In this document: positions 1,189 to 41,357 of the stretch, one piece after another
Numbering within the stretch: position 1 is the first letter of the stretch
Layout: each line of letters opens with the position of its first letter
Source: SAR116 cluster alpha proteobacterium HIMB100
GTDB lineage: Bacteria > Pseudomonadota > Alphaproteobacteria > Puniceispirillales > Puniceispirillaceae
Direction of reading: 5' to 3'
Length of the DNA stretch: 64,000 nucleotides
Assembly (NCBI GenBank): GCA_000238815.2
Contig: AFXB01000010.1
Location: 1 to 64,000, forward strand
Position numbers and translations under genes: made by a program
Notes under the pieces: model-generated
The model's input: only the letters and a program-made list of their open reading frames with translations
The model's database searches: none
Told to the model about the DNA's origin: nothing

Positions 1189-1264
1189 GCTGGTGTGGCT
1201 CAATTGGTAGAGCACCCGATTTGTAATCGGGCGGTTGGGAGTTCGAGTCTCTCCACCAGCACCA
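1189..1264 (+). tRNA. tRNA-Thr (anticodon TGT), island attachment site
   Basis: A 76-nt cloverleaf: acceptor GCTGGTG/CACCAGC, D arm GCTC-AATTGGTA-GAGC, anticodon loop TTTGTAA, T arm GGGAG-TTCGAGT-CTCTC, discriminator A and encoded CCA. Its last 16 nt lie inside the first copy of the 18-bp recombination core, so the gene is the chromosomal attachment site of the adjacent island and its 3' end may be supplied by the element. It is intact and should be functional. Confidence 0.96.
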
Positions 1265-1266
1265 TT
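1249..1266 (+). other. Recombination core 1 (in tRNA-Thr 3' end)
   Basis: CTCTCCACCAGCACCATT, identical to cores at 8135-8152 (same orientation) and at 2820-2837 and 9983-10000 (inverted). It covers the 3' side of the T stem, the acceptor stem and CCA of tRNA-Thr. In families of tRNA-targeting tyrosine recombinases the shared identity block contains the crossover, so this is the likely attB/attL core (inference). Confidence 0.8.
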
Positions 1267-1336
1267 TTTCCCCATCAAATGAAGTGCATCTCATTGTTTT
1301 GTAAGCATACGTTATGTTTGCAGGAGATGACTGATG
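1249..1336 (+). repeat. Terminal inverted repeat of unit 1, left copy (88 bp, perfect)
   Basis: Base-for-base reverse complement of 2750-2837. It runs from the tRNA-Thr 3' end through a T-run, presumptive promoter and ribosome binding site, and stops exactly at the ATG of the integrase gene. The next base differs between the two copies. Confidence 0.95.
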
Positions 1337-1352
1337 TACAGAGTGATGTACA
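1332..1352 (+). promoter_or_regulatory. Tandem 12-bp-spaced TGATGTACA sites over the integrase start
   Basis: TGATGTACA occurs at 1332-1340 and 1344-1352, exactly one 12-bp step apart, overlapping the integrase ATG. The same pair occurs at 8022-8042 and, inverted, at 2930-2950. Position next to cores suggests arm-type integrase or accessory-protein binding sites that could also autoregulate the gene (inference). Confidence 0.6.
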
Positions 1353-2482
1353 ATTCCAATTCCCCTCACGTGTCATGCAGGGCTGGTGTTTATTACTATA
1401 CAAGACGAGTTCCCGTTGATGTGAGGCAGTATTATGCCTCCCCTCGCCTATCTTTTAGCCTGAGAACCAAGTCATATGCTGGTGCTGTTCGTGCAGCTCA
1501 GTCTGTGACACAGCGTCTTGAGGATTACTGGCTTGGTTTGCGGCTACAGAACATGGATATTCCAGCTATCCATCTCGTAAGAGGGGATGGTATGGCACAT
1601 GATGCGCCAGTGATGCTGGATGCTGTTGAGAACTATCTCAAGCTGAAGAGTAATGATGACCGCACCTTTATAAGGACGGCGAGGCGCAATGGTGATTATG
1701 TTGCCAAGCTATTAGGCAACAGACCAGTTACATCCTACTCAACAGCTGAGGCTGCACAGTTTCGTGACTGGTGCTTCGACAAAGGCATGGGGCTAAACAC
1801 AGTGAAACGTGTTTTTGCCTCCGTCAGGTCTGTTATAAATCTTAATATCCGTGAATATGGATTACAGGGCGGCAATGCATTCTCCGGCACATACATGCCA
1901 GACTTGAATAATCTATCCCCAAAACGAAAACCCCTCCCATTGGAAATACTGAAACTTGTTCAAAATCAGTGCCGAGAAACTGATGATGAGGTACGTTGGT
2001 TAGCTTTACTTCTAAGTGAGACAGGGATGAGACTTAGTGAAGCTGCTGGGCTTGCAAGAGAAGATATTCACCTCGATAAACAGCTGCCTTATTTGGAGAT
2101 AAAGCCGCACGAATGGAGGCGACTAAAGACAAATTCTAGCCAACGTCGCCTTCCACTAGTAGGTCATTCATTATGGGCCGTCAGGCAAGCTTATATCGCC
2201 AGCAATGGCCCATTTATGTTCCCTAAATATTGTAATGAGAATGGCTGCAAATCTAATTCTGCAAGTGCTGCATTAAACAAGTGGCTGAAGGGTTTGGCAG
2301 GACCAAATTACGTAATTCACTCTTTCCGCCACGCGTTAAGAGACAGACTACGGGCAGTTAACTGCCCTACAGACATGATTGACCAGATAGGTGGATGGAG
2401 ACGAAAGTCAGTGGGAGAGACATATGGAGAGGGTTATAATCTTGAGCAGGTCTATGAATGGCTCAATAAAATCTCACTTTAA
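1334..2482 (+). CDS. Tyrosine recombinase/integrase of unit 1
   Basis: A 382-residue site-specific recombinase expected to integrate or rearrange DNA at the tRNA-Thr core. The catalytic set is complete: Arg233 in 'TGMRLSEAAGL', Lys265 in 'RLKTN', His329/Arg332 in 'HSFRHALRDRLR', Trp355 in 'QIGGW' and nucleophile Tyr364 in 'ETYGEGY'. The N-terminal 100 residues hold an arm-binding-like segment ('GVYYYTRRVP') and a SAM-like core-binding region. The ATG at 1334 follows AGGAG by 7 nt. Its upstream region, including the ATG, is duplicated in inverted orientation ahead of the facing gene at 2752. The 3' end overlaps that gene by 9 nt. It is clearly related to the integrase at 8256-9383. Being AT-richer than the flanking genes, it was probably acquired. 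Confidence 0.95.
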   Translation: MYRVMYNSNSPHVSCRAGVYYYTRRVPVDVRQYYASPRLSFSLRTKSYAGAVRAAQSVTQRLEDYWLGLRLQNMDIPAIHLVRGDGMAHDAPVMLDAVENYLKLKSNDDRTFIRTARRNGDYVAKLLGNRPVTSYSTAEAAQFRDWCFDKGMGLNTVKRVFASVRSVINLNIREYGLQGGNAFSGTYMPDLNNLSPKRKPLPLEILKLVQNQCRETDDEVRWLALLLSETGMRLSEAAGLAREDIHLDKQLPYLEIKPHEWRRLKTNSSQRRLPLVGHSLWAVRQAYIASNGPFMFPKYCNENGCKSNSASAALNKWLKGLAGPNYVIHSFRHALRDRLRAVNCPTDMIDQIGGWRRKSVGETYGEGYNLEQVYEWLNKISL

Positions 2483-2752
2483 TCGCCGTTCCTTCTCACG
2501 CTCTACGCGCAACTGATGGTCAACTTCATCTTCTACAGCTTTTTGCAATCGCTCTTTTTTAGACCTACCAAACATACCTAATATAAACGCATGTAACATC
2601 GCCACTGGAAACAATAAGAAAAGGTAGAATATCACTAGTATTGGGTTATACCGCTCAAATAGCTGACCAATGCCTCTTAATGCCCAATATCCCAGCAGCA
2701 GGATTACAATGAGGATAATACCGGTTAGGAGTGTTGAATCCCCACTCTCCAT
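2474..2752 (-). CDS. Small membrane protein, cargo of unit 1
   Basis: A 92-residue protein I do not recognise. It has two predicted membrane segments (about residues 9-28 and 36-60: 'GIILIVILLLGYWAL' and 'PILVIFYLFLLFPVAML') followed by a highly charged cytoplasmic-looking tail rich in Lys, Arg and Glu. It starts at the ATG that ends the right copy of the 88-bp inverted repeat, so its promoter, ribosome binding site (AGGAG) and start codon are identical to those of the convergent integrase. The two genes overlap tail to tail by 9 nt. It could be an immunity, exclusion or anchoring factor of the element, but nothing in the sequence decides this. Confidence 0.7.
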   Translation of the reverse strand: MESGDSTLLTGIILIVILLLGYWALRGIGQLFERYNPILVIFYLFLLFPVAMLHAFILGMFGRSKKERLQKAVEDEVDHQLRVEREKERRLK

Positions 2753-2837
2753 CAGTCATCTCCTGCAAACATAACGTATGCTTACAAAACAATGAGATGC
2801 ACTTCATTTGATGGGGAAAAATGGTGCTGGTGGAGAG
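2750..2837 (-). repeat. Terminal inverted repeat of unit 1, right copy (88 bp)
   Basis: Perfect inverted copy of 1249-1336. It ends at the ATG (2752-2750) of the 92-residue membrane protein and includes core 2. Confidence 0.95.
2820..2837 (-). other. Recombination core 2 (inverted)
   Basis: Inverted copy of the 18-bp core. It is shared between the right end of unit 1 and the left end of unit 2. On its right side it continues into GTTAAATGCTCTACC instead of tRNA sequence, so identity with the tRNA gene stops at the T-stem. Confidence 0.8.
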
Positions 2838-3166
2838 GTTAAATGCTCTACCCAAGCACCAAGCTGCATCTCTGTGTAAGCTTTATCAATAGGTTACGTT
2901 TGTAGCTACGACTGTCAATAGGCAAGAAATGTACATCAGTTTGTACATCAGTGAATTCCTTAACGGCCCTAGTATGTAATAACTGCCCCACCCCCCTCTG
3001 TCTTTCATTTAACTGCACAGTTACTTATGCATCGCTCAAACCACAGGGTAGGCAGTTCTCTGCACAGATACTTATGTCCAAGGCATAAAATAACCCCCCA
3101 TGCATGGGCCATAGGGGGTGTGCCTGTACTTATTGTCAGGGTCTTACACAGATAGGAGATTTAGAA
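2820..3166 (+). repeat. Terminal inverted repeat of unit 2, left copy (347 bp)
   Basis: Reverse complement of 7806-8152 with matching ends and no net indel. It is non-coding. It contains core 2, an inverted pair of TGATGTACA sites (2930-2950), two direct repeats of CTGCACAG(T/A)TACTTATG (3013-3029 and 3060-3076) that look iteron-like, and a palindromic block ACCCCCC-ATGCATGGGCCAT-AGGGGGT (3093-3119). The repeat stops 1 nt before the stop codon of the gene at 3168. Confidence 0.95.
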
Positions 3167-3167
3167 C

Positions 3168-3746
3168 TTAATTGTGACCATCCTCTTCATAGTTTCTAGA
3201 GCCTGATGGTTTTCTATTCTCATATGCTGCTGTTACTTCCCACTGATGGTGATAATAGAATTCATTGAAGCTTGTGTTTTCTTCAGCTTGACCATGAAAT
3301 TCAAAAAATCCTGCTTTTTGACGATATTTACACAAAGCAGAAATACATGACTTTTCTACATACGAATATACATTTGGCAACTCTCCAGTTTTCCAGTGAA
3401 CTAATACAACAGAAGGGCGGTTATTATACTTTCCTTTTTCTACGCCGTGCCAAAAACACTCATGATATTCATACCGAGTATATTTTTTAGCTTCTCCCCA
3501 TCCGTTATTTCCGCCTTTTTCTCTATGCCATTTTCTGCGAATTATCTGTTTAATCGTAGCACCAGATGAATCAATTTCCACAATTTTTGCCGGCCAGTAG
3601 GAATAACTACTTTCACCCCTTGTGCTTGTTTTGTAACATTCTCTCGCTAGTACCTTGTCATCATCGCTGCTTATACGTTCGTCCGCAAAAGAAGTCGAAA
3701 CAACTGTAAAAATCAGCAAGCAAAAACAGAAGAATTTTATTATCAT
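3168..3746 (-). CDS. Secreted hypothetical protein of unit 2
   Basis: A 192-residue protein of unknown family. Residues 1-21 form a typical signal peptide (positively charged start, 'FFCFCLLIFTVV', cleavage after 'TSFA'). The mature part is rich in Tyr, Trp, Lys and Glu, has several cysteines that could form disulfides, and shows no motif I can name. The ATG follows AGGAGG (in the reverse reading of 3750-3757). Its stop codon lies 1 nt inside the boundary of the 347-bp terminal repeat, mirroring the PLD gene at the opposite end of the unit. Likely exported to the periplasm or beyond. It is separated from the upstream macro-domain gene by a terminator-like hairpin, so it probably has its own promoter. 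Confidence 0.7.
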   Translation of the reverse strand: MIIKFFCFCLLIFTVVSTSFADERISSDDDKVLARECYKTSTRGESSYSYWPAKIVEIDSSGATIKQIIRRKWHREKGGNNGWGEAKKYTRYEYHECFWHGVEKGKYNNRPSVVLVHWKTGELPNVYSYVEKSCISALCKYRQKAGFFEFHGQAEENTSFNEFYYHHQWEVTAAYENRKPSGSRNYEEDGHN

Positions 3747-3914
3747 GAAAACTACCTCCTATGTTTTTTCTGGTGCTTTATTTGGTGCTTGATGGGCTTG
3801 ATATTGGCTAGGTCATCTATTGTATTCAGAAATGTTTTTCATATTATCTCAGTAATGAGCATGTTCTTTTGCAGTACATTTGTAATTACGCTACTCTTCG
3901 CTGAACTTTATTAA

Positions 3915-3934
3915 AATGAGAGTGCTCTCTCATT
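3915..3934 (-). terminator. Hairpin terminator after the macro-domain gene
   Basis: AATGAGAG / CTCTCATT, 8-bp perfect stem with a 4-nt loop, followed on the minus strand by TTAATAAAG. It lies just past the stop codon of the gene ending at 3940 and would end the unit 2 leftward operon. Confidence 0.55.
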
Positions 3935-3939
3935 CTGCT

Positions 3940-4449
3940 CTAAATTTCATGAATGTCTGTTAACGCATCTTCCACTCCATCGCATTGCTGGAAGATGGCC
4001 TTTCTAATTTCCAACCCACCTGCGCCTGTGCCTAAACCAGTCATCCCCAAGCAAACGGCTCCCGCTCGGTGTGCGGCAATAACGCTTCGGTATGCTGCAG
4101 CATAAGATACAGATTCATGGCCTGACAATCCATCTGCTGCAATGCTAACCGTTGGCGCAACAATGAGCCATTTGACACGCTCATCTGCAGTCTGGATAGC
4201 TCTAGCTTCACCCACAGGTATGGGTTTTGCTTCGATGCTTTTTCGCACTCTATACTCAAGTGTGTTCCCGAAGTGTCGGCGTAACGCAGCATCATAGCCT
4301 CCATTCATAATTCCCGCTGTATTTGCTGGGCTTACAACCGCATCAATATCGAAAGCTAATGGTGTACCGTCATGCCATTCAAAAGTTGGATCGTAATCTT
4401 TTAAAGCTTCAATAACTTGCCTATTGTGGTCAGCTATGATCACTCTCAT
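3940..4449 (-). CDS. Macro-domain (ADP-ribose-binding type) protein
   Basis: A 169-residue protein resembling the macro domain, a fold that binds or hydrolyses ADP-ribose and related nucleotides. The supporting segments are 'DAVVSPANTAGIMNGGYDAAL' near residues 39-59 (equivalent to the family's DxIVNAAN...GGG loop) and 'GMTGLGTGAGG' near residue 140 (the phosphate-binding loop). A serine-proline variant replaces the usual NAAN, so activity is uncertain. The ATG at 4449 is preferred over 4482 because AGGAAG precedes it and because 4482 would overlap the upstream gene. It is the last gene of a four-gene leftward operon with a polymerase-like protein. Macro domains occur in NAD/ADP-ribosylation conflict systems, which may be relevant on a mobile element. 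Confidence 0.72.
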   Translation of the reverse strand: MRVIIADHNRQVIEALKDYDPTFEWHDGTPLAFDIDAVVSPANTAGIMNGGYDAALRRHFGNTLEYRVRKSIEAKPIPVGEARAIQTADERVKWLIVAPTVSIAADGLSGHESVSYAAAYRSVIAAHRAGAVCLGMTGLGTGAGGLEIRKAIFQQCDGVEDALTDIHEI

Positions 4450-4462
4450 TGCAACAAACTTC

Positions 4463-5809
4463 CTAGTTGAACATCCACTCATTTTGGCGAAACCATTCTA
4501 AATAATCAACCTGTCCCAAGCCGTCTGGAAATTTTGGCATGCCAGGATGCACTTTACCAATTTGGGCTGTCGTTCTTATTTCACCGCCTGTGATATTAAA
4601 ATAGCTCTCACGCATCGTTTCTTCTAACTCACCTAACGTGTCTCCATATGCATGATGCATAATGAAACTGTCATGGATAGGAAGCACTGGTGCGGATTCT
4701 AAGTTCGCGAAATGTAGCATTACGCCGTCTGCAATTTGACTATCAAGAAACTGCAGCTCTGTCCCTACACCTGAATAGAAAAGGCTCTCTATGGGCTTGT
4801 GAGCGGCAGCAATCGCATCTCTAAGCTCAGCCCAGTTGAATGGACAGCCACTCAAATCCAGTCCCCTTGGAGCGCGTGAGAGGAGATGTGTGGCGTTGAG
4901 CATTGCGTTAAATGCACGCTTAACAATTTCTCTATGTTCTTCTCCAAAGACACATGAATATGCATCTTCTTCCCCTAGATGTTTTCCTACTTTCATGTAA
5001 GCCAGATGAGGGTTCATTTGAGAATAATCGTACTCACAAGTTAGCTTCCAATCTAATGTGATGAAGGGACGGTATTCCTTAGGAACGTTCTGCCACCACC
5101 CACCATAAAAACGCCCGCCACGATCAAACCGACCATCCGTGAAAATGCGCCTTAGATATTTCTGCGTAAAGTTTATTGGCGTTTTGTCATCAGAACATTT
5201 CAATCGTTCATTAAGCTGACTGTATTCAGACTTAGGAATTTCCAAAGCAATTCTGCAACGGCTTAAACACCAATTAATTTTGCTGAGATTAGCTCTCATG
5301 TGATTTGTGTCATCTGTATCAGTATATTGAAGGTTGACCCGCTTCTGGTTGTCCTTTCGCCCTAATATTATGGTTTCCATTTGGGGAAGATGTTTATCCA
5401 GTTTTCCAGAGCACAATGCATTCAAATCACACATCTCAAGCAGTTTTTCCGACGCACTAAAGCGGGTGCGCTCTCCTTTCTGTCTGTCTCTGTCAAGATA
5501 GCCCCGCTTAACTTCCCTTATCAGTCCAGCAGCTTTTAAGCTGCGATAAGCACTGGAGAGTTGAGTGTAGGAAATACCTGGAGGGGAATACCTGTTATTT
5601 GCGCTGTAACTGGATTTATCCAGAGCTAATATACAGGGTATTTCTGGTGATAGATGGGCGTGAGATATTGCATCAGAAATGATGAACTCAATTGCATTCG
5701 TGAATTTATCCAGCGCATCCGCACTCCGCTTCCTTTGTCTGAATTCGGCCTTGAGGCATTTAGCCACACAAACACTGACCAGATTGCTGATATTATTAAT
5801 GTCCTTCAT
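4463..5809 (-). CDS. Putative replication protein with polymerase palm-like motifs
   Basis: A 448-residue protein. Residues about 70-115 look like a winged helix ('ISYTQLSSAYRSLKAAGLIREVKRG'). The C-terminal half contains 'GGRFYGGWWQ' (231-240), 'CEYDYSQMNPHLAY' (259-271), 'REIVKRAFNAMLNA' (293-306) and 'PIHDSFIM' (377-384). The order and character of the last three resemble motifs A (DYSQ), B (K-rich helix) and C (HDS) of family A DNA polymerases and T7-like single-subunit RNA polymerases; this is my reading, not a database result. It could be the replication initiator or polymerase of the unit. The start overlaps the upstream stop as ATGA, indicating translational coupling. The alternative start at 5830 would overlap further and is less likely. 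Confidence 0.65.
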   Translation of the reverse strand: MKDINNISNLVSVCVAKCLKAEFRQRKRSADALDKFTNAIEFIISDAISHAHLSPEIPCILALDKSSYSANNRYSPPGISYTQLSSAYRSLKAAGLIREVKRGYLDRDRQKGERTRFSASEKLLEMCDLNALCSGKLDKHLPQMETIILGRKDNQKRVNLQYTDTDDTNHMRANLSKINWCLSRCRIALEIPKSEYSQLNERLKCSDDKTPINFTQKYLRRIFTDGRFDRGGRFYGGWWQNVPKEYRPFITLDWKLTCEYDYSQMNPHLAYMKVGKHLGEEDAYSCVFGEEHREIVKRAFNAMLNATHLLSRAPRGLDLSGCPFNWAELRDAIAAAHKPIESLFYSGVGTELQFLDSQIADGVMLHFANLESAPVLPIHDSFIMHHAYGDTLGELEETMRESYFNITGGEIRTTAQIGKVHPGMPKFPDGLGQVDYLEWFRQNEWMFN

Positions 5810-6180
5810 GAGCAGCCTCCCTTCGCCCAACGCGGTCTGGGTGGCTTAGAATCAAGACAGCTCTGTAGGCCTTGGGCCTTTAGCCAAGCAGTCCATTCTT
5901 TCCATGGGTTTTGTCTGAACCGCATAGGTTTCTCAGAACAGCTCACAAGCGGCGTAAAAGGCTCATGAGCCATCACATAGGTCTTTGCTTGCTCATAAGT
6001 TTCAAAGTGGTCACAGCGCACTACAGGAAGCTTAATAGAGTTCTTGTAGGTGGTCAGAACCCAGCAACGTCTGCGCTTCGTTAGCTGATGACCTGTAGCG
6101 TCTATGTCTGCCACAGACCCTCTCTTCAGCCTCATCACATACACTCGGTCATCGACAGGTAGTTCAAGTAGCAGAGACAT
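5806..6180 (-). CDS. Small hypothetical protein upstream of the polymerase-like gene
   Basis: A 124-residue basic protein without a motif I recognise. The C-terminal third has a tryptophan-rich stretch ('NPWKEWTAWLKAQGL') and ends in proline, arginine and lysine. Its ATG overlaps the stop of the 59-residue gene (TAATG) and follows GGAGGTGAATA, a good ribosome binding site. Its stop overlaps the next start (ATGA). The double coupling means the three proteins are made together, suggesting a replication or DNA-binding accessory role (inference). Confidence 0.7.
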   Translation of the reverse strand: MSLLLELPVDDRVYVMRLKRGSVADIDATGHQLTKRRRCWVLTTYKNSIKLPVVRCDHFETYEQAKTYVMAHEPFTPLVSCSEKPMRFRQNPWKEWTAWLKAQGLQSCLDSKPPRPRWAKGGCS

Positions 6181-6359
6181 TATTCACCTCCGTTATTTGA
6201 GTTATCGATAACGCCGGTTTGCTTAGCAGAAGAGACTACTTGTCTTACTGTCTTACAAATGAGTTTCGCTGTTCCACCGTGACTTTCTAGCTGGTCCAAA
6301 TGGCCGTCTTGTTCTAAGTCAGCCAAGCACTGCAGGATGATTTTCTCTAATTTTTGCAT
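6180..6359 (-). CDS. 59-residue small protein, first gene of the unit 2 leftward operon
   Basis: A small open reading frame starting ATG 6359 and ending TAA 6180, beginning 'MQKLEKIILQCLADLEQDGH'. It is predicted helical and mildly acidic, ending in 'NSNNGGE'. The ribosome binding site is weak (GAGAGATGTAAC). Support comes from the TAATG overlap with the next start and from the absence of any other use of this stretch. Function unknown; small helical proteins in this position are often regulators (inference). Confidence 0.5.
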   Translation of the reverse strand: MQKLEKIILQCLADLEQDGHLDQLESHGGTAKLICKTVRQVVSSAKQTGVIDNSNNGGE

Positions 6360-6395
6360 GTTACATCTCTCTCGGTTACGGTTTGAGGAGATATG

Positions 6396-6455
6396 GATGG
6401 GTTATGCACTATCCCTAACCCATCTCTTCCCCTTCACTTCGTTCAGGGGGAAGAG
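6396..6455. promoter_or_regulatory. Two adjacent perfect hairpins in the divergent promoter region of unit 2
   Basis: GATGGGTTA (6396-6404) pairs with TAACCCATC (6416-6424), and CTCTTCCCC (6424-6432) pairs with GGGGAAGAG (6447-6455): two perfect 9-bp stems that share a base. They lie between the leftward operon (start 6359) and the rightward PLD gene (start 6489). They could be overlapping operators, leader structures or part of an origin for the polymerase-like protein. Confidence 0.5.
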
Positions 6456-6488
6456 TGGGTAGGGTCTATGCTCGGCAGGGTTTGTTAG

Positions 6489-7805
6489 ATGGATATACTT
6501 GAAGATGCATCCTTGGCTTGGCAGACATTGGCTGTAAGCGGGAACATAGACGATGAAATAATAGTTTTATCACCCTTCATTACTGGCGATCTATTGAGCG
6601 AATTAGTTCAAAGCTCAACAGCATCAAAATTTACTATTGTTACCGCTCTCACTGCACAATCTATTTACAGTGGCGCAGTAGATTTAGCTGTTCTTGAAAG
6701 TCTATTAGAAACAAATTGCTCCCTGCTCTCATGCAAAGGCTTGCATGCCAAATTGATGAAGCGTGGAAGCGCTGTGATCTTGGGTAGTCAGAATTTTACC
6801 ACCGGCGGCATTCATAATCTTGAGTTATCGGTTCAAATGGACGCGCTTGGTTCAAATCAGGACAAGTTAAATAAATTCATAGAGAAGGTGATTTCACAAA
6901 GCGGTGTGATTAACAACAACTTGCTCAGCATATTAAAGCAAGAGTTAGACGTGTTGCATGTTGAACGAGATGAACTAAACGAACATTACGAAAAGATTAA
7001 CGTAATTATCCAAGAGAGCTTTGAAGCTCAATACACAGCTTCTGTAGAAGCAGAAACACCCTCTGATACGGGAATAGTGGTTGAGAGAGCATCGGAAAAA
7101 CACCTCATCACAATGGGTTGGGATGAAGACGCTGAAGTCTCTTGGTTTGAAAGGATGAGCGAAAGACGGGAGTTTGGAACTGGCCCTATATTTCCTAAGT
7201 CAGATCTTACAAAGTTTGTTAGAGAGGACGGCAGTATCTTAAGACTGCTACAGGGGTATTTTTATTTCTGCATAGATACTGAGACTTTGCAGCCCTTCTT
7301 CATGAAGGCTAATAAAACCCGAACTTCGTTTATTGTTACCAATCTGCTGCGTCATATTTCCAATACCCAGCCTCATAAAATTTCTATAACCCTTAGAAAG
7401 CCTACTAGTTCGTTGCCTTGGAATATCAGTTTGCAGATTGGCTTGAACGTAGGTCCTGATGTATCCCATGCACACCTTGTCTCAACATTACTATTTGATG
7501 GGACGAATTTATCCCCATTTTCTTATAGAATTAAATGCTTCGGTCATGATGGTGTAAGAAGTGATGTGACCAAGGCGGATTTCGAACGCTCTCATTCAAA
7601 AATTCCTACTTTTGAGCGAGCTGACATATTAACTGCTATTTTTGAGCCGTTTTATTCTCCATCACAAAAAGAGAAATTGCGACCTGATGACATTTATTCA
7701 GAGGGACGCAATTTTGAGCTTATCGCAAAAGAAATCGACCTTACTGCCAGTGAGGCAAAACATCACAAAAATATTCCCTTTTTGGTAATTAAATGTATCG
7801 ATTAA
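6489..7805 (+). CDS. Phospholipase D-like (HKD) domain protein
   Basis: A 438-residue protein. The N-terminal 120 residues carry one HKD signature: 'LHAKLMKRGSAVILGSQNFT', with His86, Lys88, then Gly-Ser-x-Asn at 99-102 and Glu112. One HKD per chain implies dimerisation to form the active site, as in Nuc/BfiI-type nucleases. Residues about 145-175 look coiled coil ('KQELDVLHVERDELNEHYEKI'). The C-terminal 250 residues are of unknown fold. It is divergent from the polymerase operon, and its stop codon directly abuts the 347-bp terminal repeat (7806). Likely a nuclease or other phosphodiesterase; a role in defence or element maintenance is plausible but unproven. Confidence 0.75.
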   Translation: MDILEDASLAWQTLAVSGNIDDEIIVLSPFITGDLLSELVQSSTASKFTIVTALTAQSIYSGAVDLAVLESLLETNCSLLSCKGLHAKLMKRGSAVILGSQNFTTGGIHNLELSVQMDALGSNQDKLNKFIEKVISQSGVINNNLLSILKQELDVLHVERDELNEHYEKINVIIQESFEAQYTASVEAETPSDTGIVVERASEKHLITMGWDEDAEVSWFERMSERREFGTGPIFPKSDLTKFVREDGSILRLLQGYFYFCIDTETLQPFFMKANKTRTSFIVTNLLRHISNTQPHKISITLRKPTSSLPWNISLQIGLNVGPDVSHAHLVSTLLFDGTNLSPFSYRIKCFGHDGVRSDVTKADFERSHSKIPTFERADILTAIFEPFYSPSQKEKLRPDDIYSEGRNFELIAKEIDLTASEAKHHKNIPFLVIKCID

Positions 7806-8110
7806 TTCTAAATCTCCTATCTGTGTAAGACCCTGACAATAAGTACAGGCACACCCCCTATGGCCCATGCATGGGGGGTTATTTTATGCCTTGGACATAA
7901 GTATCTGTGCAGAGAACTGCCTACCCTGTGGTTTGAGCGATGCATAAGTAACTGTGCAGTTAAATGAAAGACAGAGGGGGGTGGGGCAGTTATTACATAC
8001 TAGGGCCGTTAAGGAATTCACTGATGTACAAACTGATGTACATTTCTTGCCTATTGACAGTCGTAGCTACAAACGTAACCTATTGATAAAGCTTACACAG
8101 AGATGCAGCT

Positions 8111-8150
8111 TGGTGCTTGGGTAGAGCATTTAACCTCTCCACCAGCACCA
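8111..8150 (+). other. tRNA-like remnant or hairpin around core 3
   Basis: TGGTGCT (8111-8117) pairs with AGCACCA (8144-8150) around GGGTAGAGC...CTCTCC. An equivalent 7-bp inverted pair spans core 4 (9985-9991 / 10020-10026). It looks like a collapsed tRNA 3' half or a recombinase core with arms. There is no anticodon arm, so it is not a tRNA gene. Confidence 0.5.
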
Positions 8151-8152
8151 TT
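8135..8152 (+). other. Recombination core 3 (direct with core 1)
   Basis: Same orientation and sequence as core 1 in tRNA-Thr. Recombination between cores 1 and 3 would delete units 1 and 2 as a circle of about 6.9 kb and leave an intact tRNA gene. Confidence 0.8.
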
Positions 8153-8226
8153 CTTCCTTGTATCACTTAATACAACCAATTGAATTGCTTCACTTCATGT
8201 GTCTGCATGGCGATTGGTGTGAAACA
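8135..8226 (+). repeat. Terminal inverted repeat of unit 3, left copy (92 bp)
   Basis: Inverted match of 9909-10000 with a single mismatch (C8206 opposite A9929). It spans core 3 and the leader of the second integrase, ending at the first GAAACA site. Confidence 0.95.
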
Positions 8227-8238
8227 AGATGAGAAACA
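8221..8238 (+). promoter_or_regulatory. Tandem 12-bp-spaced GAAACA sites before the second integrase
   Basis: GAAACA at 8221-8226 and 8233-8238, exactly 12 bp apart, in the position where unit 1 has the TGATGTACA pair. The inverted pair recurs at 10093-10110. Confidence 0.55.
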
Positions 8239-8255
8239 AATATGCCTAAAATCAT

Positions 8256-9383
8256 GTGTTATTACGTGATGGTGTCTTCTATTATGTGAGGCGTGTGCCT
8301 CAAGATTTAGCTGAACATTACAGTGTGAAGAGACTGTGTTTCAGCTTACGAACAAAGTCCTATAAATCAGCTATCCATGCATCTAAGTCTGTATCACAAA
8401 GACTTGAGGACTATTGGCTTGGTTTGAGACTGCAGAAGATAGACATTCCTGCCCTGCAGTTGGTTGAGTCAGATGATGTGTCTGATGACAGTTGTCTAGT
8501 ATCTGAAGCACGTGAGTTGTACCTTCGGCTAAAAGGTGTTGGTAAGGACAGGGTGTTTATCAGAACAGCTACTCGTAATACTGATTATGTCATCAAACTA
8601 TTAGGTGACAGACCAATAGGCTCTTATTCCTCTTTAGAGGCTGCACAGTTCCGTGACTGGTGTTTGAAACAGGGAATGACTGTGAGGACAGTGAAGCGTG
8701 TCTTTGCGTCAATTAGAGCAATAGTAAACCTTGCTATTACTGAACATGGCTATGACTGTTCTAATGCCTTTTCCAAGACATTCTTTCCAGAAGAGGAGAA
8801 TGTAGCCAAGCGGAAACCTAAACCCATTGAAGACATCAGAACCATTCAATCAAAATGTATGGAGATTGATGACGATATGCGTTGGCTGATAGCCCTCATA
8901 TCAGACACTGGCATGAGGCTTGGAGAAGCTGTAGGGCTTCTGAAAGAAGACATTATCCTTGAGCATGATGCACCTCATGTAAGGCTTATACCTCACCCGT
9001 GGAGATGTTTGAAGACAAAGGGTAATCAACGAGACATACCGCTAGTAGGTGCGTCTCTGTGGGCCTGTAAGAGGCCTCTAGAGGCTAATGATGATAGTAT
9101 CTTTGCCTTCCCTAGATACTGCAAGGAGAAGACCGCTAATGCTAACTCAGCCAGTGGTGCATTAAACAAATGGCTCAGCGATTATGTGCCAGAGGGGTGT
9201 GTCATTCATTCTTTCAGACATTCAATGCGAGACAGGCTAAGAGTAGTTTCTTGTCCATCAGATATGATAGACCAGATAGGTGGATGGAGTACCGCTGGTG
9301 CTGGGCAGGGTTATGGTGTGGGATTTCAACTAGCTACAATGTTGGGTTTTCTTAAAGAGATTGCTTCTGACTTTTCCTTCTAA
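8256..9383 (+). CDS. Tyrosine recombinase/integrase of unit 3
   Basis: A 375-residue recombinase clearly homologous to the one at 1334-2482. The catalytic residues are all present: Arg221 ('DTGMRLGEA'), Lys253 ('CLKTK'), His318/Arg321 ('HSFRHSMRDRLR'), Trp344 ('QIGGW') and Tyr353 ('QGYGVGF'). The start is unclear. GTG 8256 gives 'MLLRDGVFYYVRRVP', which matches the usual family beginning, but no ribosome binding site precedes it. An in-frame ATG at 8229 is cut off by TAA at 8247, and ATG 8242 is in another frame. The N-terminus may therefore be slightly damaged or may start at GTG. The 3' end overlaps the facing lipoprotein gene by 32 nt. Being AT-richer than the backbone, it fits the island. 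Confidence 0.9.
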   Translation: MLLRDGVFYYVRRVPQDLAEHYSVKRLCFSLRTKSYKSAIHASKSVSQRLEDYWLGLRLQKIDIPALQLVESDDVSDDSCLVSEARELYLRLKGVGKDRVFIRTATRNTDYVIKLLGDRPIGSYSSLEAAQFRDWCLKQGMTVRTVKRVFASIRAIVNLAITEHGYDCSNAFSKTFFPEEENVAKRKPKPIEDIRTIQSKCMEIDDDMRWLIALISDTGMRLGEAVGLLKEDIILEHDAPHVRLIPHPWRCLKTKGNQRDIPLVGASLWACKRPLEANDDSIFAFPRYCKEKTANANSASGALNKWLSDYVPEGCVIHSFRHSMRDRLRVVSCPSDMIDQIGGWSTAGAGQGYGVGFQLATMLGFLKEIASDFSF

Positions 9384-9888
9384 GCACTTCTTTTCGCAAT
9401 GCTTCGTTTACACGCTTATATGCTGGTTCAACCCAACTGGCATCCCAGAAGTTCATGTAGAATCCTGTATATTCCTCACGTTGAATAACCATCGTACCAC
9501 CATCCACTTTCTGCAGTTCATAATGGTGGTCAAATGTAATGATACCAGTGTACCCGCCAAACTGATTAAGGTGATATGGTGGGTCAAATTTAATAACTTT
9601 TGACTTTATGGTTGCTTGCTTATCTTTTGCTTCAACCACAGTGTTGGTTATTCGGCTTCCTACCTCATACGTTCCAACAGCATTAATAATGACTGGATTC
9701 CAGTTCTTGTAATTTTCAGCATCCGTTATGACCGACCATACTTCAGCTGGTTCTGCCTCAATCATAATCTCAGTATAAACTTCATGATAACCAAGTGACT
9801 TAGAAACAGATTTCATAGCATTACAACCACTTAAAAAAATCAGAGAGGAGATTACTAGTGCTATGTTCTTCAAGATTTTTAAAGTCAT
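9352..9888 (-). CDS. Lipoprotein with SRPBCC/START-like ligand-binding domain, cargo of unit 3
   Basis: A 178-residue protein. Residues 1-22 are a lipoprotein signal with lipobox 'LSGC' (Cys22). Residues about 38-165 look like a polyketide cyclase/SRPBCC domain, a fold with a hydrophobic ligand pocket: 'IEAEPAEVWSVITDAENYKNWNP' followed by 'KVIKFDPPYHLNQFGG' and a long C-terminal helix. Expected to be anchored in the periplasm by lipid. The ATG at 9888 has a weak ribosome binding site (TTAGG); its upstream region is the inverted copy of the integrase leader. It is convergent and overlapping with that integrase. The ligand and its benefit to the element are unknown. Confidence 0.78.
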   Translation of the reverse strand: MTLKILKNIALVISSLIFLSGCNAMKSVSKSLGYHEVYTEIMIEAEPAEVWSVITDAENYKNWNPVIINAVGTYEVGSRITNTVVEAKDKQATIKSKVIKFDPPYHLNQFGGYTGIITFDHHYELQKVDGGTMVIQREEYTGFYMNFWDASWVEPAYKRVNEALRKEVLRRKSQKQSL

Positions 9889-9908
9889 CCTAATAATTCA
9901 CCCGCCCC

Positions 9909-10000
9909 TGTTTCACACCAATCGCCATACAGACACATGAAGTGAAGCAATTCAATTGGTTGTATTAAGTGATACAAGGAAGAATGGTGCTGGTGGAGAG
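9909..10000 (-). repeat. Terminal inverted repeat of unit 3, right copy (92 bp)
   Basis: Inverted copy of 8135-8226, one mismatch. It lies 20 nt upstream of the lipoprotein start codon and ends with core 4. Confidence 0.95.
9983..10000 (-). other. Recombination core 4 (inverted)
   Basis: Inverted 18-bp core, direct with respect to core 2. Beyond it the flank is TAGGTCTGCGCTACAC, different from the flanks of cores 1 and 2/3. Confidence 0.8.
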
Positions 10001-10563
10001 TAGGTCTGCGCTACACTGAAGCACCATTTCCAATTGAATTACAACTATACTCCCAGTTTATGTGATGCACTTGCACTGTCAACACGCACAAATGTTTCTT
10101 AGTTTGTTTCACAGTAGGTGATGCATCTTTAATGTTTGCGAAATCACCCCGACTATCCAGCTTTAAATGACTCATTGCTGGCTGTTTAAGAGTCACTGAG
10201 AGGCTTGTGTGTGTTCAGCTATACCTTACACCTGAACTGCCACACACAGGCTGTATGACTCTTACATGGACACACATAGGGTTGGACATGAACCTCTGGG
10301 GGTATGCACGTAGTTATACTCAGGCTATTACACAGATGGGGTGTCATAAAAATTACTACTGAGTATAGGGAAAGTGAGACATGGCAAGTGTCTTTATACC
10401 TACCTTTAAAATATCACTTAGCTACTTCACTTATCTGTGCATTTAACATGATTACACATCAAGTGACCCACCCCATGCATGGGCCATGGGGGGTGTGTAG
10501 ATATGTATAGTTGGGGTGTTACACAGATGGGGAGGGGAAATGAGCCTATCTGTTGATAAAAAA
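10001..10563. other. Non-coding left flank of a fourth, half-preserved unit
   Basis: No gene is seen. The stretch parallels the unit 2 terminal repeat: AAGCACCA near the core, ACTGTCAA 75 nt from it (74 nt in unit 2), an inverted pair of TGTTTC sites 12 bp apart (10093-10098 and 10105-10110), the block CCCCATGCATGGGCCATGG (10471-10489) and TTACACAGATGGGG twice (near 10325 and 10521). It looks like a diverged homologue of that repeat whose right-hand partner is missing. Confidence 0.6.
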
Positions 10564-25630: not shown

Positions 25631-26629
25631 ATGCCAGCAGATTTTTATTATGGCGTTGAAGTGTTTCTGAACGGGTTGATGGCCGGGGTGATGTATTCTC
25701 TGGTGGCGCTCGGATTCGTTCTGATTTTTAAAGCCTCAGGCATTTTTAATTACGCACAAGGCATCATGGCATTATTTGCGGCCATGACTCTGGTTGGCTT
25801 TCAGGAAGGTCAAATCCCGTTTGCCCATCTGATTAATGCCGTGTTCGGGACTGAAGTGCATCATTTCGGATGGACCATACCCGCATTTTTTGCGATCCTG
25901 TTTGCTTTGGGTGTAATGTTGTTATTCGCCTTTCTTGTCGAAAAATTGATCCTCAAACATCTGGTGAATCAGGAACCGATCATTCTGTTTATGGCGACAA
26001 TCGGCCTTGCCTATTTTATGGAAGGATTCGGTGATTTGATGTGGGGGTCAAACGTCAAAAAGCTGGATATCGGCATTCCGCAAGGGGGCAATTTCTGGAT
26101 TGAAGAGAACACAGCCTTCCTTGGCGGCGAAGATTTCTATGGCTTTTATCTTGATACGCTGGATATCTATGCCACTGTGATTGCTGCTGTTCTGGTGGTT
26201 TCGCTGGTGCTGTTTTCCCAATATACAAAAACCGGCCGGGCCTTGCGTGCAGTAGCTGATGACCATCAGGCAGCCTTGTCGGTCGGCATTTCATTGCGCG
26301 GTATCTGGGTAATTGTCTGGGGTATTGCAGGCTTCGTGGCCCTGGTTGCGGGGATCATGTGGGGGTCCAAATCAGGCGTTCAATTCTCGTTATCCCTAAT
26401 TGCGCTGAAAGCTTTGCCTGTGCTGATGCTGGGCGGCTTCACGTCTATTCCGGGGGCAATTATAGGCGGATTGATCATCGGGGTTGGCGAAAAGATGTTT
26501 GAATTTCTGATCGGCGCGCCTTTGCTGGGCGGGGCTACGGAAAATTGGTTTGCCTATATGCTGGCTCTTGTATTTCTGGTGTTCAGACCACAAGGCCTGT
26601 TTGGCGAAAAGATTATTGAGAGGGTGTAG
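25631..26629 (+). CDS. livH: Branched-chain-type ABC transporter permease (LivH-like)
   Basis: A 332-residue inner-membrane protein with about eight hydrophobic helices. Family segments: 'NGLMAGVMYSLVALGFVLIFKASGIFNYAQGIMALFAA' at the start, 'GRALRAVADDHQAALSVGI' (the cytoplasmic loop that contacts the ATPase) and 'ALPVLMLGGFTSIPGAIIGGLIIGV' near the end. The start follows GGAGAGGAAAGATC. The stop is 6 nt before livM. Confidence 0.93.
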   Translation: MPADFYYGVEVFLNGLMAGVMYSLVALGFVLIFKASGIFNYAQGIMALFAAMTLVGFQEGQIPFAHLINAVFGTEVHHFGWTIPAFFAILFALGVMLLFAFLVEKLILKHLVNQEPIILFMATIGLAYFMEGFGDLMWGSNVKKLDIGIPQGGNFWIEENTAFLGGEDFYGFYLDTLDIYATVIAAVLVVSLVLFSQYTKTGRALRAVADDHQAALSVGISLRGIWVIVWGIAGFVALVAGIMWGSKSGVQFSLSLIALKALPVLMLGGFTSIPGAIIGGLIIGVGEKMFEFLIGAPLLGGATENWFAYMLALVFLVFRPQGLFGEKIIERV

Positions 26630-26635
26630 ACAGTC

Positions 26636-27712
26636 ATGCTTTATCGTGAAGTTGGTGAATTTAAAACATCCTACGCTGCTGATCAGCAGACCTTTCCCAT
26701 TGGGTTTGACAAAATTGCCTATTTTGTGGCGCTGGCATTTGCCTTTCTGGTGGTGCCGTTCCTGATCAATGATTACTGGGCAAATGCTATTCTGCTGCCG
26801 TTTCTGATTTTCGGCATTGCCGCGATAGGGCTGAACATTCTGACTGGTTATTGTGGTCAGGTGTCGCTGGGGTCTGGTGGTTTTATGGCTGTTGGGGCTT
26901 ATGCCTGTTATAAACTGATGACAGGCTTTCCTGAGATGAATTTGATCATCTGCATTCTGCTGTCAGGTGGGGTGACGGCTATGGTGGGAATCTTGTTTGG
27001 CCTGCCCAGCCTGAGAATTAAGGGCTTCTATCTGGCTGTTGCAACTCTGGCGGCACAGTTCTTTCTGGTCTGGCTGTTTAACAAGGTTGGCTGGTTTTAT
27101 AACTATTCAGCTTCTGGCCAGATTAATGCGCCGGAACGTGAATTTTTAGGCATCATCATCTCTGGGCCGAATTCATCACCTGAAGCTGTTTATCTGGTGT
27201 GCCTGTCATTCCTGACTGTTCTCGCCCTTGTTGCCCGTAATCTGACACGCGGGTCGTTTGGACGGAAATGGATGGCCATTCGTGATATGGATATCGCTGC
27301 CGAAATTATCGGGGTGAACCCGTTGATGGCCAAGCTGACGGCCTTTGGTGTGTCGTCATTTTATGTGGGCATTGCCGGGGCTTTGTTATTCTCTGTCTAT
27401 CTGGGGGCTGTTGAGGTTGGTGAAGTGTTCGGCATCCAGAAATCATTCCTGGTCTTGTTTATGATCATCATTGGCGGACTGGGCTCTATTTTCGGGTCTC
27501 TGGCCGGGGCAGCCTTTCTGGTTTTGATGCCAGTTGTACTGAAAAATGTGATGGTTGGCTCGTTAGGCTGGCCGGTAGATATTGCGGCCCATTTTGAGTT
27601 TTTGATTGTGGGCTCACTGATTGTCTTTTTCCTTATTGTGGAACCGCATGGCTTTGCCATGTTATGGCGCATCATCAAGGAAAAGCTGAGGCTCTGGCCA
27701 TTTCCGCATTAA
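26636..27712 (+). CDS. livM: Branched-chain-type ABC transporter permease (LivM-like)
   Basis: A 358-residue membrane protein, the second permease. Markers are 'AAIGLNILTGYCGQVSLGSGGFMAVGAYA', 'LPSLRIKGFYLAVATLAAQ', 'WMAIRDMDIAAEIIGVNPLMAKL' (coupling loop) and 'GGLGSIFGSLAGAAFL'. Expected to form the channel with LivH. It starts 6 nt after the livH stop. The N-terminal segment before the first helix is longer than in many relatives. Confidence 0.93.
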   Translation: MLYREVGEFKTSYAADQQTFPIGFDKIAYFVALAFAFLVVPFLINDYWANAILLPFLIFGIAAIGLNILTGYCGQVSLGSGGFMAVGAYACYKLMTGFPEMNLIICILLSGGVTAMVGILFGLPSLRIKGFYLAVATLAAQFFLVWLFNKVGWFYNYSASGQINAPEREFLGIIISGPNSSPEAVYLVCLSFLTVLALVARNLTRGSFGRKWMAIRDMDIAAEIIGVNPLMAKLTAFGVSSFYVGIAGALLFSVYLGAVEVGEVFGIQKSFLVLFMIIIGGLGSIFGSLAGAAFLVLMPVVLKNVMVGSLGWPVDIAAHFEFLIVGSLIVFFLIVEPHGFAMLWRIIKEKLRLWPFPH

Positions 27713-27809
27713 TGGTCTGAAGCAGGTCAGCGGGCTGTTCTTACTTGACGGCAAGCTGGCAATATACTGGAATTAAAATAAAAGAACTTGAGTTCAAACG
27801 GAGGAAATC

Positions 27810-29096
27810 ATGAAGCTCAAATCACTTATTGTCGGCGCGGCGACGGCCCTGACCATGGTCAGCCCGGCCCTTGCTGATCTGACATTTCCAAATCTGACTT
27901 ACCGCACAGGTCCTTATGCTGTTAACGGCATTCCCTATGCTGACGGCTATGCCGACTACATGACCCTGCTGAATCAGCGTGATGGCGGCATCGGCGGTGA
28001 AATGATTAACTATATTGAGTGTGAAACACAGTACAACACCGAAAAGGGTGTTGAGTGTTATGAAAACACAAAGGGCGAAGGCTCGCTGGTGTATCAGCCG
28101 ATGTCAACAGGCATCACTTACCAGCTGATCCCGAAAGCTACCGCAGACGGCATTCCCATTCTGTCTATGGGCTATGGGCGCACATCAGCTGCAAATGGTA
28201 AGGTGTTCAGCCATGTATTTAACTACCCGGCCAATTACTGGGTTGGGGCGTCTGCTGTAATTAACCATATTCTGTCTCTGAATAATGGCGATATTAAAGG
28301 TAAGAAAATCGCGCTTGTCTATCACAACTCTGCTTATGGCAAAGAGCCTATCCGGACGCTGCAGGAGCTGGAAAAAAAGCATGGATTCAAGCTGTCTTTG
28401 TTGCCTGTTGACCACCCTGGTCAGGAACAAAAATCACAGTGGCTGCAGATCCGCCGTGAAAAGCCTGATTATGTCACCATGTGGGGCTGGGGTGTAATGA
28501 ACCCAACCGCAATTCAGGAAGCTGCAAATATTCGTTACCCAATGGAAAATTTCATCGGCGTATGGTGGTCAGGCTCAGAAGGTGATGTTCTGCCCGCAGG
28601 TGAAGCAGCCAATGGTTATAAGTCACTGGCCATGCATAACACCGGTTCAGACTTCCCGATCTATGCGGACCTGAAAAAGCATGTTTATGACAAAGGCATG
28701 GCTGCAGGTGACGGGTCTTCTTCAGGACAGGTTCTGTATAACCGCGGACTATATGCAGCGATGCTGGCAACAGAAGCGGCCCGCCTGGCCCAGAAGATGT
28801 CTGGAAAGTCAGATATCTCACCAGCAGATATGCGTGATGCGATGGAAGCATTCTCGATTGATGAAGCACGCATGGCGTCGCTTGGTCTGCCTAACTTTGC
28901 ACCAAGCTTCAGCGTATCTTGTGAAAATCACGGTGGCCCAGGCCTTGCCGCGATCCAGCAGTGGGATGCCAAGGCCAAGAAATGGTCAATGATCTCTGAC
29001 TTCATCGAAACAGATGGTGAAGTGATCAATGCCCTGATTGCTGAAGATTCAGCCGCCTATGCTGCTGAAAATAAAATTTCTGAGCGGTGTGGCTAA
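27810..29096 (+). CDS. Periplasmic substrate-binding protein of the Liv-type transporter
   Basis: A 428-residue type I periplasmic binding protein with a signal peptide ending at 'SPALA' (about residue 22). The mature part has 'RTGPYAVNGIPYADGYADYMTLLNQRDGGIGG', 'KKIALVYHNSAYGKEPIRTLQEL' and 'PDYVTMWGWGVMNPTAIQEAANI'. This is the longer variant of the family (LivK-like but about 50 residues bigger), the sort often found with acyl-CoA ligases rather than amino-acid uptake. GGAGG precedes ATG 27810. Its gene is followed by a strong hairpin before livF, which may raise the amount of binding protein relative to the ATPase. Confidence 0.9.
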   Translation: MKLKSLIVGAATALTMVSPALADLTFPNLTYRTGPYAVNGIPYADGYADYMTLLNQRDGGIGGEMINYIECETQYNTEKGVECYENTKGEGSLVYQPMSTGITYQLIPKATADGIPILSMGYGRTSAANGKVFSHVFNYPANYWVGASAVINHILSLNNGDIKGKKIALVYHNSAYGKEPIRTLQELEKKHGFKLSLLPVDHPGQEQKSQWLQIRREKPDYVTMWGWGVMNPTAIQEAANIRYPMENFIGVWWSGSEGDVLPAGEAANGYKSLAMHNTGSDFPIYADLKKHVYDKGMAAGDGSSSGQVLYNRGLYAAMLATEAARLAQKMSGKSDISPADMRDAMEAFSIDEARMASLGLPNFAPSFSVSCENHGGPGLAAIQQWDAKAKKWSMISDFIETDGEVINALIAEDSAAYAAENKISERCG

Positions 29097-41337: not shown

Positions 41338-41357
41338 GCCAAAAGCGCTGCCAGAGG

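Follow-up and report, generated by a model that had tools for sequence, protein, structure and literature searches.

A tRNA-associated integrative element of SAR116 bacteria with a probable second, inverted attachment site

Introduction

Genomic islands at tRNA genes are viewed as carrying a single attachment site (attP) per circle and a fixed order of genes. What, then, is the meaning of a chain of attachment cores in alternating orientation behind one tRNA gene? This question is raised by a 64-kb stretch of the genome of SAR116 cluster alpha proteobacterium HIMB100 (contig AFXB01000010.1, positions 1 to 64,000, called the window here), in which a sequence-only reading had described four such cores as the bounds of three separate units, each with its own terminal inverted repeats (TIRs). 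We found that cores 1 to 3 (1249-8152) form one complete integrative element, E1, made up of an integrase unit (U1), an inverted core 2 and a cargo unit (U2). It belongs to a family that is found in many SAR116 bacteria, and outside them in some Alphaproteobacteria, and that retains a second site in inverted orientation, with cargo genes lying either way round.

Results and Discussion

Organization of the HIMB100 element

The 18-bp core CTCTCCACCAGCACCATT is present at 1249 (+), 2820 (-), 8135 (+) and 9983 (-), at the positions and in the alternating orientation first reported, with 0 mismatches among the four copies. The window holds no further match at up to three mismatches (shuffled sequences average 0.07), and no copy at up to one mismatch was found beyond it when the whole 2.46-Mb genome was searched. 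ARAGORN places a tRNA-Thr(UGU) gene at 1189-1264, which confirms that the core includes the 3′ end of this gene: it consists of its last 16 nt followed by TT. Measured from the core, the arms of U1 are 88 bp long and perfect (1249-1336/2750-2837), those of U2 are 347 bp long and also perfect (2820-3166/7806-8152), and those of unit 3 are 92 bp long with one mismatch (8135-8226/9909-10000), so the arm lengths given earlier stand, with the 347-bp pair now found to be perfect. Likewise, tyrosine recombinases with DUF6538 and Phage_integrase domains are encoded in units 1 and 3, while a Pfam scan found no recombinase among the U2 proteins of E1. What did not survive is the division into three separate TIR-bounded units, since the repeating element is core 1-U1-core 2-U2-core 3, with unit 3 forming the integrase-bearing half of another element.

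U1 (1249-2837) sits 3′ of both its cores, while U2 (2820-8152) sits 5′ of both its cores, on the tRNA side. A circle made between core 1 and core 3 would therefore hold two inverted copies of the same arrangement, b-core-a, in which 329 bp of U2 arm, the 18-bp core and 70 bp of U1 arm make up 417 identical bp. Indeed, when 418 bp around core 2 were compared with the predicted core 1-core 3 circle junction, the single difference was at the outer end; core 2 lies within this 417-bp stretch identical to the junction because the U1 and U2 arms join there. The parts of E1 are as follows.

1189..1264, +: tRNA-Thr(UGU), the attB gene, whose 3′ end is core 1 (ARAGORN)
1249..1266, +: core 1 (attL)
1249..1336, +: U1 arm a, integrase-proximal, 88 bp with the core; perfect inverted copy at 2750-2837
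1329..1350, +: tandem candidate arm-type sites GACTGATGTA / GAGTGATGTA, 12 bp apart, of presumed function; the distal copy lacks the second
1334..2482, +: tyrosine recombinase (DUF6538 + Phage_integrase), 382 aa
2474..2752, -: open reading frame (ORF) of 92 aa, its start lying at the inner end of arm a′; no Pfam family passes the curated cut-off
2750..2837, -: U1 arm a′ (distal)
2820..2837, -: core 2, the attP-like site inside the element, in inverted orientation
2820..3166, -: U2 arm b (left), 347 bp with the core; perfect inverted copy at 7806-8152
2932..2953, -: candidate arm-type site pair, left arm b
3168..3746, -: 192-aa ORF, cargo without assigned function
3940..4482, -: macro-domain protein (PF01661, 6.5e-10)
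4463..5830, -: small polymerase-like protein, 455 aa (phrog_4756; weak fold match to the palm of family-A polymerases and single-subunit RNA polymerases)
5806..6180, -: 124-aa ORF, beside the polymerase-like gene in L047 and L052 too
6489..7805, +: PLD-like protein (weak; PF13091, 0.016, below the cut-off)
7806..8152, +: U2 arm b (right)
8019..8040, +: candidate arm-type sites CACTGATGTA / AACTGATGTA, right arm b
8135..8152, +: core 3, attR of E1 and start of the second element, E2

A natural empty site

The extent of the mobile unit is given by a homologue on the megaplasmid of Ruegeria sp. TM1040 (NC_008043.1, recorded as complete), a cultured strain. Behind a tRNA-Phe, this element carries a DUF6538 integrase (TM1040_RS03195, 38.6% identical) and cores at 17926 (+), 19252 (-) and 30679 (+) of locus L362, with U1 arms of 85 bp and U2 arms of 1148 bp, both pairs 100% identical. 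In Tritonibacter mobilis A3R06 plasmid p2, the corresponding flanks are contiguous and overlap by the 17-bp core; the left flank, taken through the end of core 1, is 80.9% identical, and the right one, beginning with core 3, is 84.4% identical. The mobile unit is therefore core 1 to core 3, with the inverted core 2 arriving inside. Of the two excisions that had been predicted from the cores, that between cores 1 and 3 thus matches an exact empty site of a homologue, while that between cores 2 and 4 found no support here. In the genus of the window, no empty site could be demonstrated across seven other genomes, in which the flanking rlmB-like and amidohydrolase genes were matched distantly or not at all. 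The former, a SpoU-type (RlmB-like) methyltransferase gene (254-1141), lies beside the tRNA-Tyr/tRNA-Thr pair.

The U2 of TM1040 holds a type I restriction-modification system between two oppositely oriented copies of the same BRO protein accession. The BRO-family gene is complete inside the 1148-bp perfect inverted repeat (L362:19252-30695), and the accession is annotated twice, in opposite orientation, because the U2 arm contains the whole gene.

Recurrence among relatives

A search of related genomes for the same core with other cargo had been proposed, and the layout does recur, with other cargo and at other tRNAs. At E 1e-60 or better, the E1 integrase matched 75 of 292 genomes, nearly all of the same order. 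A scan of GTDB species genomes gave 359 integrase relatives; of the best 80 of these 359, which were inspected, 47 are labelled SAR116 cluster and the rest are unplaced Alphaproteobacteria, 'Candidatus Puniceispirillum' and a few metagenome-assembled genomes with other labels. Outside the order the family is rarer, with matches at E 1e-40 in 12 of 386 genomes of the class, 7 of the 12 from other families. Eight loci were fetched from the class-wide matches, and the U1 repeat was present in six (L363-L368) and not in L369, while L370 ends with its contig. One of the six, L364 (genome G328), has its integrase unit behind a tRNA-SeC, with a perfect inverted repeat of 86 bp. Among viral contigs, the window integrase alone as query gave 0 matches and a profile search gave 22 loci. 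Four of these were inspected: L272 has the U1 repeat (84 bp, 100%), L275 has none, and in L273 and L274, whose contigs end beside the integrase gene, the repeat was not judgeable.

The U1 inverted repeat accompanies 55 of the 75 integrases found directly behind a tRNA; it measures 57-102 bp in 51 of the 55, and its median identity is 100%. Inverted repeats of at least 50 bp were found with 52 of the 75 tRNA-linked integrases, against none in 207 control pieces of chromosome from the same loci. The targeted tRNAs include those for Thr, Leu, Arg, Phe, Gly and Asn, and one locus lies at a tRNA-SeC. Both pairs of arms could be delimited in 12 elements of 4.1-18.1 kb, to which TM1040 adds a thirteenth. 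In the 12, U1 arms are 57-102 bp long (91-100% identity), U2 arms are 153-437 bp long (95-100%), and core 2 is kept in every case; 10 of them were recovered by the core scan as well, and five are in single-contig genomes (G013c, G020b, G020c, G061a and G061b). Many core-scan loci have core 2 without a core 3 nearby, owing to contig ends or decay. Most listed elements have one integrase gene between cores 1 and 2; L044 has two, and that of L054 is interrupted.

Other arrangements were seen beside these. L044 (G000:C5:1-20000) is a second such element in the genome of the window, at a tRNA-Leu(GAG); its U1 also carries a PLD-like gene, and a third integrase unit starts from its core 3. L045 (G000:C10:704000-722000) has a distant integrase and a polymerase-like gene behind a tRNA-Gly; no second core was found in it, and it adjoins large direct repeats that have diverged, among them one of 934 bp at 84%. 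In G108, G132, G075d and G083, members of the same integrase family occur at tRNA-Gly(GCC) with only direct cores, which may represent an ancestral or a secondarily reduced state.

In related species, the integrase gene and the arms are shared at the same tRNA, and the sequences after the integrase gene and inside U2 differ. For ten pairs at tRNA-Arg(UCG), the integrase genes stay at 90-95% identity from the least similar upstream chromosomes (81%) to the most similar (96%). Since the identity of the integrase does not track that of the chromosome, whole elements, integrase included, seem to move horizontally.

Fixed U1 and mixed U2

The sequence-only reading had predicted inversion of each unit. 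The prediction agrees with what we see in U2, whose genes lie both ways among relatives, and not with U1, which lies one way. Among 109 distinct integrase genes, 75 point away from the adjoining tRNA, 1 points toward it and 33 have no close tRNA (in an earlier, smaller set of 71, these numbers were 52, 0 and 19). The one counted as pointing toward a tRNA, L241, is the sole integrase whose tRNA faces its 3′ end, about 1 kb past the gene, and it has no inverted repeat. Genes that follow the integrase in U1 are likewise constant (27 same, 1 opposite). In contrast, homologous U2 gene pairs are oriented relative to the integrase in the same way in 63 cases and in opposite ways in 57, and this holds at 30-50% identity (45/36), at 50-75% (9/10) and at 75% or more (9/11). 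In relatives with direct cores only, 14 pairs at 30% identity or more are all in the same orientation, as are the 15 pairs overall; among the five elements with a direct end core, G075d, G108 and G132 gave pairs, and G013a and G083 gave none. Fisher tests on these orientations gave p values of about 3e-4 or less, to be read with the non-independence of gene pairs in mind.

The polymerase-like gene of U2 behaves in the same manner. In inverted-site elements with matches above 80 bits, it lies in '+' orientation relative to the integrase in six and in '-' in six, and it is '+' in all four usable elements without a detected U1 repeat (G132, G075d, G108 and L269). Two further '+' cases were left out of that set, L044 because it is in fact an inverted-site element, the tag coming from the second of its integrases, and L061 because it starts at a contig edge; the fragment in G115a ('-', 56 bits) falls below the 80-bit line. 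Blocks of genes are also turned: a block of Prim-Pol, AAA_25 helicase and a small protein is mirrored between G061a and G008b, lying 0.79 kb from core 2 in one and 0.86 kb from core 3 in the other, and a second three-gene block is reversed between G115a and L223 (82-92% identity). Since U2 lies both ways in elements with inverted sites and one way in relatives with direct cores only, U2 probably flips, and the comparison suggests that the cargo half can turn relative to U1 over evolutionary time. Both orientations are known from comparison among relatives, not within one population. Contig ends near core 2 were not taken as evidence of flipping, because repeats alone break assemblies; the layout does offer a reason why assemblies break at such loci.

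Mostly unequal attachment sites

At the integrase-side inner end of the U1 repeat, paired similar 10-mers (at least 8/10 matches) lie 12 bp apart in 53 of 76 loci, compared with 30 of 1520 shuffled regions. Of those 53 loci, 32 have only the first 10-mer in the distal copy of the repeat, 18 have neither there and 3 have both, that is, the second 10-mer is missing distally in 50 of 53. The U1 repeat ends at this candidate pair in many unrelated elements. The motif was also found in arm b of 14 of the 17 elements scanned, with one or two matches each where 0.03-0.12 would be expected per arm; most of the matches share a strand and lie 71-113 bp away from the core, with one extra match at 10 bp. 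In their appearance these 10-mers resemble arm sites of the lambda type, and they may bind the integrase, in which case the integrase-proximal site would be the sole complete attP in most elements.

Proposed mechanism and alternatives

Taken together, these observations are probably best explained by a mobile, integrative element that bears a pair of inverted attachment sites and whose integrase makes both the integration and the inversion of U2. The integrating circle would consist of U1, with the integrase, and U2, with the cargo. The integrase would join the 3′ end of the tRNA (attB) to the attP beside its own start codon, giving the integrated order core 1 (attL)-U1-core 2-U2-core 3 (attR). 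Such a circle would also hold a second, inverted and nearly identical attP-like site, b-core-a′, and recombination between the inverted sites would turn U2 relative to U1 and yield two isomers, as in the yeast 2-micron plasmid. As the last integrase-proximal arm-type site is usually missing from the second site, the latter could act as a partner for inversion and not as a site of integration, and this inequality would explain why the integrase faces away from the tRNA. If the integrase is indeed the inverting agent, a single enzyme would serve integration, excision and programmed inversion, a hypothesis made testable by the TM1040 copy, with its restriction-modification system in the invertible half, and by the empty site of its relative.

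Several points weigh against this proposal. In no single population did we observe a mixture of isomers, a circle or an inversion. The control with direct cores amounts to three elements, each of them at a tRNA-Gly(GCC). The gene pairs depend on one another, small genes that recur were counted repeatedly, and where core 3 is missing U2 was set to at most 8 kb past core 2; general shuffling therefore feeds into the 63/57 ratio. Between G061b and L056, a three-gene block keeps its orientation next to a reversed polymerase-like gene, so that some reversal is not of whole units. The U1 repeat missed the threshold in 20 of the 75 tRNA-linked integrases (nine without a repeat despite at least 6 kb following, 11 on short contigs) and is decayed in G020e (57 bp, 82.5% identity). 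No clear 10-mer pair was seen in 23 of 76 loci, and 3 of 53 keep both 10-mers distally. The scan of arm b took as its motif the best self-matching pair of each element and found none in G020b, G061a and G008a, the remaining three of the 17. Finally, the U2 arms are long enough for RecA.

This last point leads to another explanation, in which RecA inverts U2 through arms of 150-1150 bp and the integrase acts at cores 1 and 3 only, the U1 arms (57-102 bp) being too short. Long, near-identical U2 arms and short U1 arms would predict a fixed U1 and a mixed U2, as observed, and the near-perfect identity of arms within elements implies homologous exchange. However, RecA has no need for a kept core 2, nor for a U1 repeat that ends at a candidate arm-type pair, and we consider this explanation less likely than one with the integrase as the agent. 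Inverted sites could also serve a natural cassette exchange, as inverted lox sites do in the laboratory: the integrase would swap whole U2 units between a resident and an incoming element, with flipping as a by-product. Related species that share integrase and arms at the same tRNA and differ after the integrase and in U2 would fit such a process, but the tRNA-Arg(UCG) pairs point to the movement of whole elements, and no two elements with different integrases were found to have more of U2 in common than blocks of a few genes, which makes exchange unlikely as the main explanation.

The inverted arms could alternatively belong to a single-stranded stage, one strand folding through them into a duplex attachment site, as has been proposed for CTX phage. 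A strand of the circle could pair across b-core-a over 417 bp, but the arms are much longer than folding requires, the mixed orientation of U2 is not predicted, and general scans of the window proteins named no rolling-circle Rep or relaxase; we consider this stage very improbable as the cause of the layout. Although each unit has inverted ends of its own, a chain of three TIR elements that move independently, each by a tyrosine recombinase, is hardly credible when no recombinase was found in the U2 of the window, U1 and U2 are jointly absent from the empty site, and the two recur as a pair. Least credible of all is an artefact in the assembly of inverted repeats. The genome of the window is in 10 contigs and contigs of relatives often end soon after the integrase unit, but the same layout is found in the single-contig genomes G013, G020 and G061 and in the TM1040 megaplasmid.

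Cargo and a possible amplification

Flipping may serve amplification, cassette exchange or nothing at all. The cargo in U2 of E1 comprises the macro-domain protein, the weakly PLD-like protein and the 455-aa polymerase-like protein. The family of the latter (phrog_4756, no Pfam match) has matches in 38 of 101 related genomes, its own included; distant matches were also seen in phages of Vibrio, Pseudoalteromonas and Shewanella. In an alignment of 33 sequences, D268, R300, K304, H386 and D387 are invariant, a pattern reminiscent of motifs A, B and C of family-A polymerases. The protein had no match among PDB sequences. Its predicted structure (mean predicted local distance difference test score, pLDDT, of 80) gave weak PDB matches in Foldseek, none at E <= 0.001; the top 21 all belong to family-A DNA polymerases or mitochondrial RNA polymerases, and winged-helix regulators such as PerR and CodY come after them, among others. 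Other elements carry Prim-Pol and helicase genes.

With such genes, flipping by the integrase behind a replication fork might start double rolling circle replication and multiply the element before its transfer, either from an origin of its own, served by the polymerase-like or the Prim-Pol/helicase genes of U2, or from a host fork diverted while the element is integrated. We regard this idea as tentative and rather doubtful. In L156, none of the four ORFs was recognised as a replication gene, just one U2 ORF having been put to Pfam, and the amplification reading is limited because replication genes are not shown to be universal in the family.

A second element downstream

From core 3 onward the window holds the integrase end of a second element, E2, the far end of which was not found within the window. 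The chain can be read as a complete E1 inserted at the tRNA ahead of a truncated E2, which would make E2 the older of the two. Their integrases share 55% identity. The parts of E2 are as follows.

8135..8226, +: E2 arm a, 92 bp; one mismatch with 9909-10000
8256..9383, +: E2 tyrosine recombinase, 375 aa
9352..9888, -: E2 U1 cargo, polyketide-cyclase-like protein (PF10604, 1e-14)
9983..10000, -: core 4, internal core of E2
10001..10540, strand not assigned: presumed b-type arm of E2, approximate extent; similarity to the E1 arm at 10280-10340 and 10471-10531 only

Core 4 looks as if it were followed by a U2-type arm, 10471-10531 being 80% complementary to 7816-7876 in the U2 arm of E1. No inverted partner of 10001-10540 was seen among the 25 longest of 37 repeat pairs in 9900-64000, and a scan of the window with four core fragments gave no further copy that could be a fifth core for E2. 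Elsewhere in the window, 41001-42000 shows a strong local AT skew (0.357), and the skew is opposite at 26001-28000.

Comparison with known systems

E1 and its relatives share with classical tRNA islands and integrative mobile elements of the lambda-type integrase an attB at the 3′ end of a tRNA, an integrase at one end, direct cores (1 and 3) and, in the TM1040 homologue, a precise empty site. They differ in that a third, inverted attP-like core with long arms is added inside, so that where a lambda-type circle has a single attP, a second, inverted 417-bp copy is predicted here, in a layout found in 13 elements. Inversion systems such as the shufflon, in which the tyrosine recombinase Rci acts on inverted sites, and PsrA, a tyrosine recombinase reportedly doing the same, do not to our knowledge share their site with a tRNA attB. 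We did not find a tRNA element with paired inverted sites in the literature searched, which was mostly without subscription journals, and a prior description is possible.

Two other groups of elements are set apart by their descriptions, as far as the parts consulted go. Tycheposons have, in common with the family described here, a tyrosine recombinase, a tRNA border, cargo and hosts among aquatic bacteria (PMC10872708), and those parts describe no inverted internal site. SE elements, reported from Gammaproteobacteria, likewise have tyrosine recombinases and inverted ends; according to the sections consulted, these ends are imperfect repeats of 13-19 bp, the core comprises four genes, among them two tyrosine recombinase genes, intA and intB, and no empty site is generated (PMC10214605). 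In our elements the arms are 57-1148 bp long, a natural empty site exists and mostly one integrase lies between cores 1 and 2.

Among known systems, the yeast 2-micron plasmid comes nearest in geometry; it is described as having 599-bp repeats with FRT sites, equal isomers and double rolling circle replication (PMC3147054). In both, two unique regions would be split by identical inverted repeats that contain the site of the element's own tyrosine recombinase, the comparison being with the predicted circle on our side. The likeness to Flp/FRT is one of layout. Our element differs in being bacterial and tRNA-integrating, and its sites are longer, bear candidate arm-type motifs and are usually unequal. 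If the integrase does invert U2, bacteria would have reached the 2-micron layout independently, and with it would come a genetic system in which the purpose of flipping can be studied.

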